A DNA stretch of 64,000 nucleotides, from contig NZ_FWWY01000001.1 in NCBI RefSeq assembly GCF_900176145.1, positions 2,787,444 to 2,851,443 on the forward strand, given 5' to 3'. The position numbers and the translations under genes are program-made. This document shows, piece after piece, positions 27,462 to 43,974 of the stretch. The notes under the pieces were generated by a model. That model was not told the DNA's origin. It was given only the letters and a program-made list of their open reading frames with translations, and did not search any database. Source of the DNA: Sulfobacillus thermosulfidooxidans DSM 9293 (GTDB lineage Bacteria; Bacillota; Sulfobacillia; Sulfobacillales; Sulfobacillaceae). Each line of letters begins with the position of its first letter. The first letter of the stretch is position 1.

Positions 27462-28079
27462 ATGGCGAACTGGACAACCTTTGCTCGCAAAACAAGCGCA
27501 GCGGTATTATCGGTAGATACCTGGTTGCCGGAGACAATGCCTGAATATGCCCAAGGTTTTATGTATATGTTAGGGTCTTTAACAGCATCAAGCTTTGTTG
27601 TCTTAATTCTTTCTGGTGTGATTTTGGCGGCTAATGGACCAGCCAGTTGGTCTTATAATGGACCGATGCGATTTGTTGCTGCAACTCATTTCTGGGCAGT
27701 TCAAGCGTTTTTCTTTTTCATGATGCTGCATTTATGGCGGGTGTTCTTTACAGGAGCGTGGCGTGGGGGCCGGCATGAAACATGGTTATTAGGAGCATTG
27801 GCTATGTTGATTGCCATTCCCACAGCTTTCACTGGGTTTTTGATTAATGGAGATTTTTACTCGCAGTGGAATGCGGTGCAAGCGAAAGATGGTTTGAATG
27901 CTCTAGGACTTGGGTGGATTAACTTACCCAATGCCGGGCAAATGGTGGGAATGCATTTAGTGGTTTTGCCCTTAACGCTTAGCGTCATCATCTTCGGTCA
28001 TATTGTACGGGTTCGGATGAAAGGGGTCGTGCCACCATATCCAGAACGCAGCGCGGCCCATGTGAAGGAGGGACAATAA
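27462..28079 (+). CDS. cytochrome b6-type diheme subunit
   Basis: Four-helix membrane cytochrome of 205 residues, matching the N-terminal (b6) part of cytochrome b, which carries both b hemes. The heme ligands are His pairs spaced 13 residues in HFWAVQAFFFFMMLH (helix 2) and 14 residues in HLVVLPLTLSVIIFGH (helix 4); the latter spacing is b6-like. GGAGGAGG precedes ATG. It forms an operon with the microprotein upstream and the membrane protein whose ATG begins two bases after its stop. Quinol oxidation would need a Qo site, which is not visible in either partner. Confidence 0.88.
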   Translation: MANWTTFARKTSAAVLSVDTWLPETMPEYAQGFMYMLGSLTASSFVVLILSGVILAANGPASWSYNGPMRFVAATHFWAVQAFFFFMMLHLWRVFFTGAWRGGRHETWLLGALAMLIAIPTAFTGFLINGDFYSQWNAVQAKDGLNALGLGWINLPNAGQMVGMHLVVLPLTLSVIIFGHIVRVRMKGVVPPYPERSAAHVKEGQ

Positions 28080-28080
28080 C

Positions 28081-29064
28081 ATGGCAACGCGTATGGATGA
28101 TGAGATGGTTCATGATTATCGTTACGTGCCCGAAGACTTTATGAAACATTTGATGTCAACATTAGGCATTATCATTGTCTTGGTCTTAGTGTTGGCAGGA
28201 CTCTTTGGAGTGCCAGAAAAACAGCCGTTAACCATTAAAAGCTATGCCACTCAAAATCCGGTAGCCTTTGAGGCGATGGCTACTAGGGACCTAAATGGGC
28301 AAGGGCGTATTGCGAATTATGGTCCGCCATATAACAACGGTACTGGGAATGTTGAATCCGGCTTACAGAAACTTTCTGGAATTTGGCACCCTATCAATGC
28401 GGAACAAGATTTTATTCTTCATCCTCTCAGCATGGCGGCGACCATTAATCCGCAAATTAGCCCTGCATTGCGGGCCTTTGAAAGTGCCTCGCGAGCTCAG
28501 CAAATTCTTTGGGCAAACAACTATGAAGCCGCGTTATTAGCGCATGGGCAAGTTGTTAACGGCAAAGTGGTGGTGCCACCCGGTAATTACGGTCCGGTTC
28601 CGGCATTAATGAATGCCACATTGCAACTTGGTAAAAGTGGATTGATGTCAGGCGCTTTAATTCGCAATCCCAACGTGGTGACGCGGTTTAACAACCAAAA
28701 TTACCAGCTGTTTCTTCAAGGGGACCCGTTACATCAAGCCGCTGCTCCCTTACAACTGAAAGGGGAACAATGGGGCATTATCCACTCAGCGGTTCCTGGA
28801 TATCCCGGAGCGTGGTGGATGACCATTCCCACATGGATTTATCAATGGCCTTGGGTCGCCAATTCGCCGGCAGCCGATGCTATTGCGCTGAGTATTGGGT
28901 TTATTATCTGGTTAATTCTGGCTCTGACACCATGGATTCCAGGATGGAACCGGGTGCCTCGCTACCTAGGCGTTTACAAACTGATTTGGAAAGACTTCTA
29001 TCACCGTCCACCGACGGAAGCGCCAACTGGTAAAAGTGAAACACAGACACGAGGAATATCGTAA
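28081..29064 (+). CDS. membrane partner protein of the b6-type cytochrome
   Basis: A 327-residue protein with a cytoplasmic N-terminus, a first helix (about 24-44), a large extracytoplasmic domain of about 210 residues and a C-terminal helix region (about 263-285, ALSIGFIIWLILALTPWIPG) with a basic tail. Its place one base after cytochrome b fits a subunit-IV-like role, but it has no PEWY motif and too few helices for a standard subunit IV. It has no CxxCH heme c motif and no Rieske cluster motif. Related cytochrome b partner proteins occur in Firmicutes and Actinobacteria, as I recall; the function is not established. Confidence 0.65.
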   Translation: MATRMDDEMVHDYRYVPEDFMKHLMSTLGIIIVLVLVLAGLFGVPEKQPLTIKSYATQNPVAFEAMATRDLNGQGRIANYGPPYNNGTGNVESGLQKLSGIWHPINAEQDFILHPLSMAATINPQISPALRAFESASRAQQILWANNYEAALLAHGQVVNGKVVVPPGNYGPVPALMNATLQLGKSGLMSGALIRNPNVVTRFNNQNYQLFLQGDPLHQAAAPLQLKGEQWGIIHSAVPGYPGAWWMTIPTWIYQWPWVANSPAADAIALSIGFIIWLILALTPWIPGWNRVPRYLGVYKLIWKDFYHRPPTEAPTGKSETQTRGIS

Positions 29065-41081: not shown

Positions 41082-41240
41082 ATGGCTCAATACGAACCCG
41101 GCGTGGAAATGATCGCAGCGGAAAATCGATCGGGATGGCTTCAATCGGAACTGGTGGACGTGGCGGTATTTGGGTTGTTTTTCGTATTGAGTGCTCTCTT
41201 TGTGATAATGGCCGGGTATTTTGTGATGGCATGGTTATAG
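41082..41240 (+). CDS. 52-residue single-helix membrane protein
   Basis: Short gene with a good ribosome binding site (GGGAGGCG) before ATG at 41082. The product has an amphipathic, acidic N-terminal half (MAQYEPGVEMIAAENRSG) and one membrane helix (about residues 26-51) with no charged residues, ending at the helix. This form is common in small subunits of terminal oxidases and other respiratory complexes. It converges with the sulfocyanin gene across a shared terminator. No homologue can be named. Confidence 0.65.
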   Translation: MAQYEPGVEMIAAENRSGWLQSELVDVAVFGLFFVLSALFVIMAGYFVMAWL

Positions 41241-41265: not shown

Positions 41266-41292
41266 AAAAACTGGCGTTTGCCAGTTTTTTTA
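41266..41292. terminator. bidirectional terminator
   Basis: AAAAACTGGC and GCCAGTTTTTTT pair around GTTT. T-runs exist in both directions, serving the 52-residue protein gene and the convergent sulfocyanin gene, whose stop lies inside. Confidence 0.85.
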
Positions 41293-41766
41293 ATCATTGG
41301 AGGGCATCACGTTGAGATCTAAATACATGCCGTAGCCGAGGTGACCTGGTCGGAGACAGGCCAGCCGGTAATGACGGGGGCGATTCGGTGTCACGAAGGT
41401 GAAGATGGCGTGGCTATGGGGAGCAATCCCCTGAAGAGGAAAGGATATGCTGGCGCCGGTGAGAATGGGACGTCTGGCGCTCAGGCCATGGGGGCCAATT
41501 AATGCTAAGGAATGGAATTGATGGGGAGCGTTGTTAATGAATGTCACGGTGACCCGGGTGCGTTCTGGAATATTGATGGTCATATTGCCGTTATAGCCGC
41601 CGTTGAGATTGTAGCCGTTGTTCATGTCATTATAATGGGCAATCACCATTAGTTCTGCAGTGTGCGTTGTGGGATCAACACGCAACCACTGCGGAGAAGA
41701 CGACCGAGGAGCATGGCTAGTAAAAAATAGCATAAAATAAAGGAACCATGACAATAATGTCAACAA
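41290..41766 (-). CDS. sulfocyanin-type blue copper protein
   Basis: Type 1 copper electron carrier, 158 residues, with an N-terminal hydrophobic segment (about 2-16) acting as signal or anchor. The strand pattern NLNGGYNGNMTINIPER is sulfocyanin-like. Copper ligands are visible: His in HQFHSLAL near residue 85, and Cys, His and Met in ACLRPGHLGYGMYL near 136-146. Sulfocyanins carry electrons in acidophile respiration and iron oxidation. The start is TTG at 41766, six bases after GGGAGG. It ends an operon with a DUF2250-like regulator and a TusA-like protein, each about 40 bases apart. Confidence 0.82.
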   Translation of the reverse strand: MLTLLSWFLYFMLFFTSHAPRSSSPQWLRVDPTTHTAELMVIAHYNDMNNGYNLNGGYNGNMTINIPERTRVTVTFINNAPHQFHSLALIGPHGLSARRPILTGASISFPLQGIAPHSHAIFTFVTPNRPRHYRLACLRPGHLGYGMYLDLNVMPSND

Positions 41767-41804
41767 TCAAAGCCTCCCGCCATGCGCGAGGCTTTCGTTA
41801 ACCG

Positions 41805-42116
41805 TTATCGCCGCGGTTTTTTCCACGTGATTTCGGGAACATCTTCTTGCTGACGAAGAAAATGATCGCCTTCGCGCGATATCATATAGTACGTATGATT
41901 ACGATGTTTGACACTTTTCATACGCCGATGATAGTACTTGACGATGCGGCCTTCGACCCGCTCAATGAAGTTCAGCGATTCTAAATAATTGAGGCGTTCA
42001 CGCATAGCCGCGACATCCATATTAAAGCGAGCGGCTAATAGTTTCGCATAATCAGGGCCTAGCGTTTTAAAATACTTCAGGAGTTTAATGTCTGTCTCAT
42101 CGAGTTTACGGTCCAT
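41805..42116 (-). CDS. DUF2250-like winged-helix protein
   Basis: A 103-residue DNA-binding-like protein. LKYFKTLGPDYAKLLAARFN with the recognition-helix region VAAMRERLNYLESLNFIERV forms a winged helix, and the C-terminal basic VKHRNHTYYMISREGDHFL matches, from memory, DUF2250 proteins described mainly in archaea. ATG at 42116 is favoured because the conserved domain starts there and GGGGTGG precedes it; the frame is open further upstream into the TusA-like gene. It probably regulates the sulfocyanin operon in which it lies. Confidence 0.65.
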   Translation of the reverse strand: MDRKLDETDIKLLKYFKTLGPDYAKLLAARFNMDVAAMRERLNYLESLNFIERVEGRIVKYYHRRMKSVKHRNHTYYMISREGDHFLRQQEDVPEITWKKPRR

Positions 42117-42156
42117 AATCCACCCCGTCGTATGAGATATCTGTGTGTGATTCATC

Positions 42157-42450
42157 TCACTCAGGTTTTTTGAGCCAAATAAGCCATTCGTGATTGACAA
42201 GTGGTTCATGATGGTTCCAGCTAAATCGATGGTCATCGTCGTAAGATAAGGTAAAGGTTTTGACATCGCGATGGCTTATACGAATGACCTCGCATCCTTG
42301 CATATGGGCATAGGCTTGTGCTTCACGTACCAAGAACGCTTTGTCCGAAATAATTTCCAGGCATTCCCCATGATTGACGGTTTCCATAGCGCGTGCAATA
42401 TCGACGATCACAGGTCTAAGGGTTTTGGTCGGACAATAAATCGTTTTCAT
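42157..42450 (-). CDS. TusA-like small protein
   Basis: A 97-residue protein whose first 60 residues follow the alpha/beta pattern of TusA/SirA sulfur carriers: an N-terminal strand, TLRPVIVDIARAMETVNHGE as helix and turn, then CLEIISDKAFLVREAQAYAH. The defining Cys-Pro-x-Pro is absent; only CPT near residue 6 and Cys near 29 are present. The C-terminal 35 residues (HRFSWNHHEP) are additional. Sulfur transfer is possible but unproven. AAAGGG precedes the ATG. It starts the sulfocyanin operon. Confidence 0.5.
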   Translation of the reverse strand: MKTIYCPTKTLRPVIVDIARAMETVNHGECLEIISDKAFLVREAQAYAHMQGCEVIRISHRDVKTFTLSYDDDHRFSWNHHEPLVNHEWLIWLKKPE

Positions 42451-42631
42451 TATTTACCCTTTCTTGAACGAAAACCGTTAACCATCATGCCTATGGCATC
42501 CCATTTTTGCCGTTACATGTTCACATTTTAACACAGGTCACAAATCCTTACCAAAAAGCAAGCGATCGTTGGCTTATCGCCACGATCGCCAGAAAACGGA
42601 TTATTGTATACTCTTACACGTATTTCAGCAA

Positions 42632-43153
42632 TCAAGTGGTGGACATACTCGGTGAGCCTGATGAGACAACTTTAACAATGTCCCATTGTCCACTGGTTGG
42701 GGAATTATTGTTATTACCATTTAGAACATTTGCTAATTTATAGGTTCCGACTTGTGTCGCGGTAAAACTAAATGATTGCGACTGTCCCGGTAAAAGTCCT
42801 GCTGAAGGGTTAACCATGACTTGCTGATAGGGCATACCGGCATTAGGAAATGCTAAATGGTCATGCTTATAAATCCCTATTGCTTCGGGAATAGGACCAT
42901 TGTTCACAAAATCCATGTTAACGTGATAACCGACCGGAATGGTCACGACCAATTGCCCGTTGGTATATCCATCAAAGGTATTAACCTGCTGGCTACTGCT
43001 GTATTCACCGATAATTTTCAAATCCACTGTTTTAGAGGCGGGATGCACTTGCATAAATTGTGATGCATCGATTGGAGCTGTGCCACAACCGGCTAATCCG
43101 ACGGTGGCTAATCCTATGGCGGCGATTGCCCCCCACTTTGTGACGTGTTTCAT
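42632..43153 (-). CDS. sulfocyanin-like lipoprotein lacking copper ligands
   Basis: A 173-residue exported lipoprotein: signal peptide with lipobox GLAGC near residue 21. The body follows the sulfocyanin pattern (FDGYTNGQLVVTIPVGYHV, then FVNNGPIPEAIGIYK). Where sulfocyanins have His the protein has PEAIG. The Cys is Asn in YKLANVLNGN, and the Met is Gln in SGQWDIVKVV. No His remains in the loop. Copper binding is therefore unlikely, and the fold may serve binding or structural roles. AGGAGG precedes ATG at 43153. It lies 181 bases upstream of the sulfocyanin operon on the same strand. Confidence 0.75.
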   Translation of the reverse strand: MKHVTKWGAIAAIGLATVGLAGCGTAPIDASQFMQVHPASKTVDLKIIGEYSSSQQVNTFDGYTNGQLVVTIPVGYHVNMDFVNNGPIPEAIGIYKHDHLAFPNAGMPYQQVMVNPSAGLLPGQSQSFSFTATQVGTYKLANVLNGNNNNSPTSGQWDIVKVVSSGSPSMSTT

Positions 43154-43359
43154 TGACGTTCCTCCTGCTACACTTGTCAAGTTATCAAAATTATCTATCT
43201 CATCCCAAGGAAGGGATGAACAAGGATTAGTACATAGAAACCATACCATAAAATTAAGCAAAACGACCAGATTTTCTTCACTTTGTTCCAAAAATATGGT
43301 GGATAATCTTCCTATTAACGCCGTTCTTTCAAGAATTTGTTGAAACTATTACTTGACAG

Positions 43360-43974
43360 CTATGTTGACGGGCGCGACGCAAGAGCACTTTGGCCCACCC
43401 ACAACACTAAATACGATGGAGCGGTGGAATTTGTGTCCAAATTTTCAATAATGCTACTAGCGCTGTTGGCCAATCGATCAGCGGTTGTCGGCGAAATCTT
43501 TTGGATGAGGACGGTGTAGGTCTTTCGAGATAGGAGCATGTAATGATTGTGCATAATACGGAGTAAAAGCGAGTCGATGCGACGATTGGTAACGGGTACA
43601 GCCGTATTGAGACTGGGATTATCGGTAATTCCCCGGTACATTCCGACATTAAATGTTGTACGCCCATCGGTAATCCACATTGCGGGAACACTTAATCCTC
43701 GCCAGTTGCTAGGAACACCCATACTGGCATTGTTAAGGCTGTTATTAATCAAATTGGCATAGATTGAGGAAGGCGACGAGGACAAGGGATTAATCATGAC
43801 CGTCGAGGGTTTAACCATTTTTCCCGATAGCAAAGGCACGGGCCACCTGCGAACCATTTGGGCGATCTGTGTGCCGGAAATAGGAGAAACGGCCTCAGGG
43901 GCGGAGGAACCACAGCCCGTTAATAGGACAGGAAGCATAATGGCAAGGCTTGCTAAAAAAATTTTGCGATGCAT
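43360..43974 (-). CDS. lipoprotein, unknown function
   Basis: A 204-residue exported lipoprotein with signal peptide and lipobox LLTGC (Cys near 21). The rest is soluble with many Ser, Asn and Thr, and no recognised domain. A segment WITDGRTTFNVGMYRGITDN near 100 looks like beta structure. It is on the same strand as, and about 200 bases upstream of, the sulfocyanin-like lipoprotein, so a shared envelope role is possible but not shown. Confidence 0.65.
   Translation of the reverse strand: MHRKIFLASLAIMLPVLLTGCGSSAPEAVSPISGTQIAQMVRRWPVPLLSGKMVKPSTVMINPLSSSPSSIYANLINNSLNNASMGVPSNWRGLSVPAMWITDGRTTFNVGMYRGITDNPSLNTAVPVTNRRIDSLLLRIMHNHYMLLSRKTYTVLIQKISPTTADRLANSASSIIENLDTNSTAPSYLVLWVGQSALASRPST

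Follow-up and report, generated by a model that had tools for sequence, protein, structure and literature searches.

In Sulfobacillus, the conserved core of the sulfocyanin (SoxE) family may be formed by proteins that have lost their copper site, with copper-competent members occurring sporadically, and both iron-responsive "sulfocyanins" of S. thermosulfidooxidans might lack copper and serve as subunits of an iron-linked oxidase, not as electron carriers. We give this combined claim slightly less than an even chance. It arose from the lipoprotein P0002, encoded in S. thermosulfidooxidans DSM 9293 (genome G000) within the window, the whole stretch of 64,000 nucleotides that was analyzed. The features in the window to which we refer are the following:

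27462..29064, plus strand: gene pair for cytochrome b/b6, serving to anchor the gene numbering at Sulth_2730/2731 (gene order; PMC6315122)
41290..41766, minus strand: P0001, intact sulfocyanin-domain protein of 158 aa (Pfam SoxE, ligand columns)
41805..42116, minus strand: DUF2250 helix-turn-helix protein (Pfam DUF2250, 8e-17; synteny with the TusA-like gene); its start possibly lies further upstream
42157..42450, minus strand: TusA-like protein (Pfam TusA 2.4e-5, 24.5 bits, below the cut-off of 28.6; synteny)
42562..42589, minus strand: hairpin directly past the P0002 stop, identified by visual inspection of the 3' flanking sequences
42632..43153, minus strand: P0002, SoxE-fold lipoprotein of 173 aa without copper ligands (Pfam SoxE, predicted fold, lipobox)
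43360..43974, minus strand: lipoprotein without Pfam match, encoded upstream of P0002; its synteny covers five genomes, G000 among them (cluster c7)

Ligand loss, fold, and distribution

Both open reading frames lie on the minus strand where the sequence-only reading had placed them. P0001 and P0002 both match Pfam SoxE above the curated cut-off of 21 (E 8e-9, 35.5 bits and E 4e-9, 36.5 bits, respectively). P0001 starts with TTG at a GGAGG site, contains the motifs FHSLAL and ACLRPGHLGYGM, and has His, Cys, His, and Met in the ligand columns of the family alignment (HCHM). This confirms the full type 1 copper set that a sequence-only reading had assigned to this minus-strand open reading frame. 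P0002 starts with ATG; its His, Cys, and Met sites read GPIPEAIG, KLANVLNG, and TSGQWD, respectively. Its four ligand columns are E/N/N/Q and hence lack the type 1 copper set, and together with the SoxE match these motifs corroborate the proposal that it retains a sulfocyanin framework without copper ligands. By sequence, P0002 has a signal peptide with the lipobox LAGC, of which A21, G22, and C23 do not vary among 18 sequences; this qualifies it as a bacterial lipoprotein. Both proteins resemble sulfocyanin (SoxE, PF06525) in Pfam family, predicted cupredoxin fold, and export, in P0002 with a lipid anchor. However, P0002 lacks all four copper ligands, and P0001 and P0002 remain far below the cut-off of the sulfocyanin equivalog NCBIfam TIGR03094 (33.9 and 28.6 bits, respectively, versus 168.4).

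A search of PDB sequences with P0002 gave no match, and a search with its profile gave weak cupredoxin matches only, so a fold search was needed. The AlphaFold2 model of P0002, built from a 17-sequence alignment, is all-beta (mean pLDDT 80, pTM 0.73). Its PDB matches are cupredoxins, namely multicopper oxidases and nitrite reductases (VIA Z 11-13), and its Foldseek list includes CuA domains, rusticyanin, and AcoP. The model of P0001 is weaker (pLDDT 69, from an alignment consisting mostly of its copper-dead relatives) and still matched rusticyanin. Both proteins are therefore predicted by modeling to be cupredoxin-like, and the different fold that might have undermined the sequence-only reading did not emerge for the lipoprotein. 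Copper-free cupredoxin folds are known from early-nodulin-like phytocyanins, ephrins, and CyoA, which has lost CuA. P0002 is similar to these in its predicted fold, its lost copper site, and a presumably non-electron-transfer or altered role. They belong to other families, however; here, the loss happened within the sulfocyanin family, and paralogues lie in a respiratory operon of acidophiles.

The P0002 clade, characterized by Glu in place of the first His, Asn or Asp in place of Cys, and loss of the second His and the axial Met, was found in all seven well-covered Sulfobacillus genomes; in the sister genus g10, 6/8 searched genomes contain it, among them S. harzensis DSM 109850. Ligand substitutions of the same kind were present in 21 SoxE family members, a recurrence that chance does not explain. 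Copper-competent SoxE genes were detected in 5/7 genus genomes (none in G001 and G004) and are distributed over three distinct branches; rusticyanin-like genes were covered by a search of their own. Within G000, six SoxE-family genes were found, and P0001 is the only one with the full ligand set. L005 and L006 share 66% and 63% identity with P0002, respectively, and are equally devoid of copper ligands. In L001, Asn and Ser replace the first His and Cys, with the second His and Met retained, and in the SoxE domain of L002, Asn, Ser, and Gln occupy the columns of the first His, Cys, and second His. The L001 type was present in 7/7 well-covered Sulfobacillus genomes.

Several side observations concern these relatives. 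L001 (L076, 9903-10430) represents a second type of dead SoxE lipoprotein and is located immediately before a molybdopterin-oxidoreductase-like gene, an order kept in G007 and G005. L002 (L077, 6692-8380) is a membrane protein of 562 aa with a fused SoxE domain and occurs in six of the seven genus genomes. G000 also contains two rusticyanin-like genes below the equivalog cut-off (2230045-2230482 and 304344-304739), the first with a Cys-His-Met motif. A SoxE-like match in G007 at 1693883 proved to be a MurA-like gene and was discarded as false.

Oxidase operons and iron-linked expression

The paralogues of P0002 head a gene cluster of the order lipoprotein, AcoP (a Tat cupredoxin), coxB, coxA, coxC, and a small gene. 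L069 and L073 show this order completely; L068 shows it up to the end of the stretch, with COX3 continued in L083. At L067 in S. thermotolerans Kr1 (G007), the order is lipoprotein-AcoP-COX1, with an interval between the last two genes in which the ORF picker called no COX2; contigs C75 (G001) and C101 (G005) stop inside AcoP. The Tat cupredoxin is a homolog of AcoP (PDB 7z3b, E 4e-21). AcoP was found in 12 of 13 genomes with the P0002 clade versus 14 of 141 other searched genomes, a comparison confounded by shared ancestry. G117 (86% complete) has the clade with no AcoP seen, and G111, presumably S. acidophilus DSM 10332, has AcoP with the clade absent. Location in an AcoP-cox operon holds for the paralogues (L067 to L069 and L073) and not for P0002 itself, the gene of which lies away from any oxidase gene. 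G000 also possesses AcoP-oxidase operons without any SoxE gene (L187 to L189); thus, the lipoprotein is not required by every such oxidase. AcoP in Sulfobacillus oxidase clusters was known already, and the gene order AcoP, coxB, coxA, coxC, small gene behind the paralogues resembles the AcoP-cytochrome oxidase clusters described for the Acidithiobacillus rus operon and Sulfobacillus (PMC4059628). The portion of that description accessible to us, however, mentions no copper-free SoxE lipoprotein at the operon head.

Two further observations were made on these clusters. The AcoP genes of both dead-SoxE clusters of G000 (L068, 3163-3810, and L069, 10475-11122) are identical at the DNA level and lie ~1.1 Mb apart. 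In S. benefaciens AMDSBA1 (G001), a third dead SoxE copy (L075, 6072-6590) has in its vicinity an AcoP fragment that contains two TGA codons (L186), probably a decayed oxidase cluster.

Papers on Sulfobacillus name such genes sulfocyanin. Two of five soxE genes of S. thermosulfidooxidans, Sulth_0453 and Sulth_2749, were reported to fall strongly in expression in the presence of a better iron oxidizer (log2FC of 3.63 and 3.13, respectively), with the oxidase genes 0449 to 0451 changing in the same direction, and both were taken for sulfocyanin carriers strongly expressed when iron can be oxidized (Christel 2018; PMC6315122). With the cytochrome b/b6 genes set to Sulth_2730/2731, a gene count along G000 puts P0002 at 2749 and continues to hdrC/hdrB at 2770/2771. 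It was done by eye, omitting a few extra short open reading frames and including an uncalled small gene at 41082, and agreement at both ends serves as its check. The order COX3, COX1, COX2, AcoP, SoxE at L068/L083 corresponds to 0449 to 0453, which would make the paralogue at L068 3847-4362 Sulth_0453, and a third anchor fits as well (COX1/COX2, 0488/0489; CydB/CydA, 0494/0495). From this numbering we infer that P0002 is Sulth_2749 and the L068 paralogue Sulth_0453, and P0002 would then share the iron-linked expression.

Copper-free sulfocyanins are probably a non-electron-carrying part of the respiratory oxidase, since they have kept the shape of a carrier and lost every copper-binding residue. 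We propose, at about even chances, that the copper-dead lipoprotein serves an iron-linked AcoP-aa3-type oxidase as a membrane-anchored accessory subunit without redox activity. Members of the clade would be exported, as predicted, and anchored through the lipidated Cys. The oxidase-linked members would bind the oxidase and shape or hold the face where the electron donor docks, and electrons would reach CuA via AcoP, cytochrome c, rusticyanin-like proteins, or other carriers. P0002 itself would be a relocated paralogue. A docking or otherwise redox-inert function had been suggested from the sequence alone, with P0001 as the partner; the function is still the best guess, with the oxidase taking the place of P0001. 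Published models of Sulfobacillus iron oxidation place sulfocyanin in the electron transport chain based on annotation and transcripts. If both responsive genes encode copper-free proteins, this step of the model falls, and the real carrier would have to be sought among AcoP, cytochromes, rusticyanin-like proteins, and the intact P0001.

It is conceivable, if rather unlikely, that the protein is instead an envelope lipoprotein without a respiratory role, its cupredoxin fold being reused to bind a small molecule, a peptide, or a wall component. The isolation of the P0002 gene from oxidase genes would fit such a function, as would the situation in g10, where the lipoprotein gene adjoins a dehydrogenase-like gene, with a transporter gene on the other side in several genomes. 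Against it speaks that paralogues belong to the AcoP-oxidase operon and that expression was reported to go along with iron oxidation (PMC6315122).

Conservation, gene neighborhood, and selection

In the alignment of the dead clade, P89, E90, and G93 are invariant, and the Cys column always contains Asp or Asn. Apart from the start Met and the lipobox Cys, this alignment has no invariant His, Met, or Cys. For this reason, copper binding by P0002 through other residues was rejected, and a role as a metal (copper) chaperone, also put forward by the sequence-only reading, is unlikely. The invariant Glu at the His position and the Asp or Asn at the Cys position raise the possibility that the copper pocket was converted to a carboxylate site for another metal such as Fe or Ca, so that the protein would sense, buffer, or pass on iron. 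We consider this improbable: the P0002 subclade has Asn and not Asp, the loop of the other two ligands is not conserved, and carboxylates are largely protonated at pH 2.

In the tree, the P0002 clade groups with an odd relative, L044 (support 100/98). Parsimony requires at least four changes to account for the loss of Cys over the SoxE family, and a single origin of all Cys-less SoxE proteins was rejected, mildly so in the AU test (p 0.039).

P0001 and P0002 had been presented as lying near each other, and a search for the gene pair in Sulfobacillus genomes had been proposed. The two genes are separated by two others, and the pair is not conserved: P0001 was found at the syntenic place only in G000 and G006, in 2/7 genomes having the lipoprotein. 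The TusA-like gene downstream of P0002 is kept in G001, G003, and G006, and in G001 and G003, the lipoprotein, TusA-like, and DUF2250 genes are all retained, with P0001 missing at the syntenic place. The contig of G004 begins at the lipoprotein, so that the synteny of P0001 is not readable there. In G001 and G003, a stem of other sequence lies near the same place after the lipoprotein stop as the hairpin of P0002. A consensus terminator scan did not call the hairpin at 42562..42589, and scans of the region for sigma-70 and terminator signals did not rise above chance. That P0002 is a redox-inert partner or docking platform for P0001 could be argued from the short distance of 0.9 kb, the common strand, and the common SoxE family in G000 and G006. 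The absence of P0001 from the syntenic place in genomes that keep the lipoprotein and both intervening genes, the hairpin after P0002, and the location of the paralogues with the AcoP-oxidase operon render this partnership very improbable. As a separate observation, the region upstream of P0002 (window positions 43153-43353) is conserved in G006, G001, and G003 and comprises a leader with a conserved small hairpin (CATCCC..GGGATG).

For P0002 orthologue pairs with unsaturated dS, dN/dS was 0.055 to 0.064, and 0.014 for the nearest pair; synonymous sites were saturated in the remaining pairs. P0001 and its one orthologue gave 0.154. Dead P0002 is constrained at least as much as live P0001, there is no sign of the relaxed selection of a pseudogene, and P0002 is not a decaying copy. 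Although every ligand is lost, the idea of a non-functional relic of a duplicated sulfocyanin gene can practically be dismissed, because dN/dS is ~0.06 for the gene as a whole, the former ligand loops are constrained too, the lipobox, start, and ribosome-binding site are retained, the gene occurs in every well-covered genus genome, and transcript counts are very high if P0002 is Sulth_2749. The predicted fold, the clade-wide substitutions, and the purifying selection lend good support to the suggestion that loss of all ligands with retention of the fold reflects a changed role. The dead clade thus provides a clean natural case of a cupredoxin without metal that is still under strong selection.

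Candidate selenocysteine in AcoP

Five AcoP homologs, otherwise full-length matches, contain one internal TGA: L175 (G113, S. harzensis), L176 (G115), L177 (G116), L178 (G124), and L179 (G103). Each time, the TGA coincides exactly with the position of the copper-ligand Cys (YG[TGA]FVQ...HWRFGMRG), and the preceding 150 residues are free of other stops. A short bSECIS-like hairpin with G at the loop start follows 16 nt past the TGA. By itself, this hairpin is of little value as evidence, because L180 and L183, relatives with a Cys codon, have one in the corresponding position. SelB scored above the cut-off in 15/15 genomes tested and SelA in 14; tRNA-Sec was above the cut-off in 13 genomes, among the matches listed in all but G120 and G124. 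SelA, SelB, and tRNA-Sec occur together in four of the five TGA-AcoP genomes, the fifth, G124 (71% complete), being without SelA. Judged from these sequence features, AcoP of these bacteria is a candidate for a natural selenocysteine-ligated copper site.
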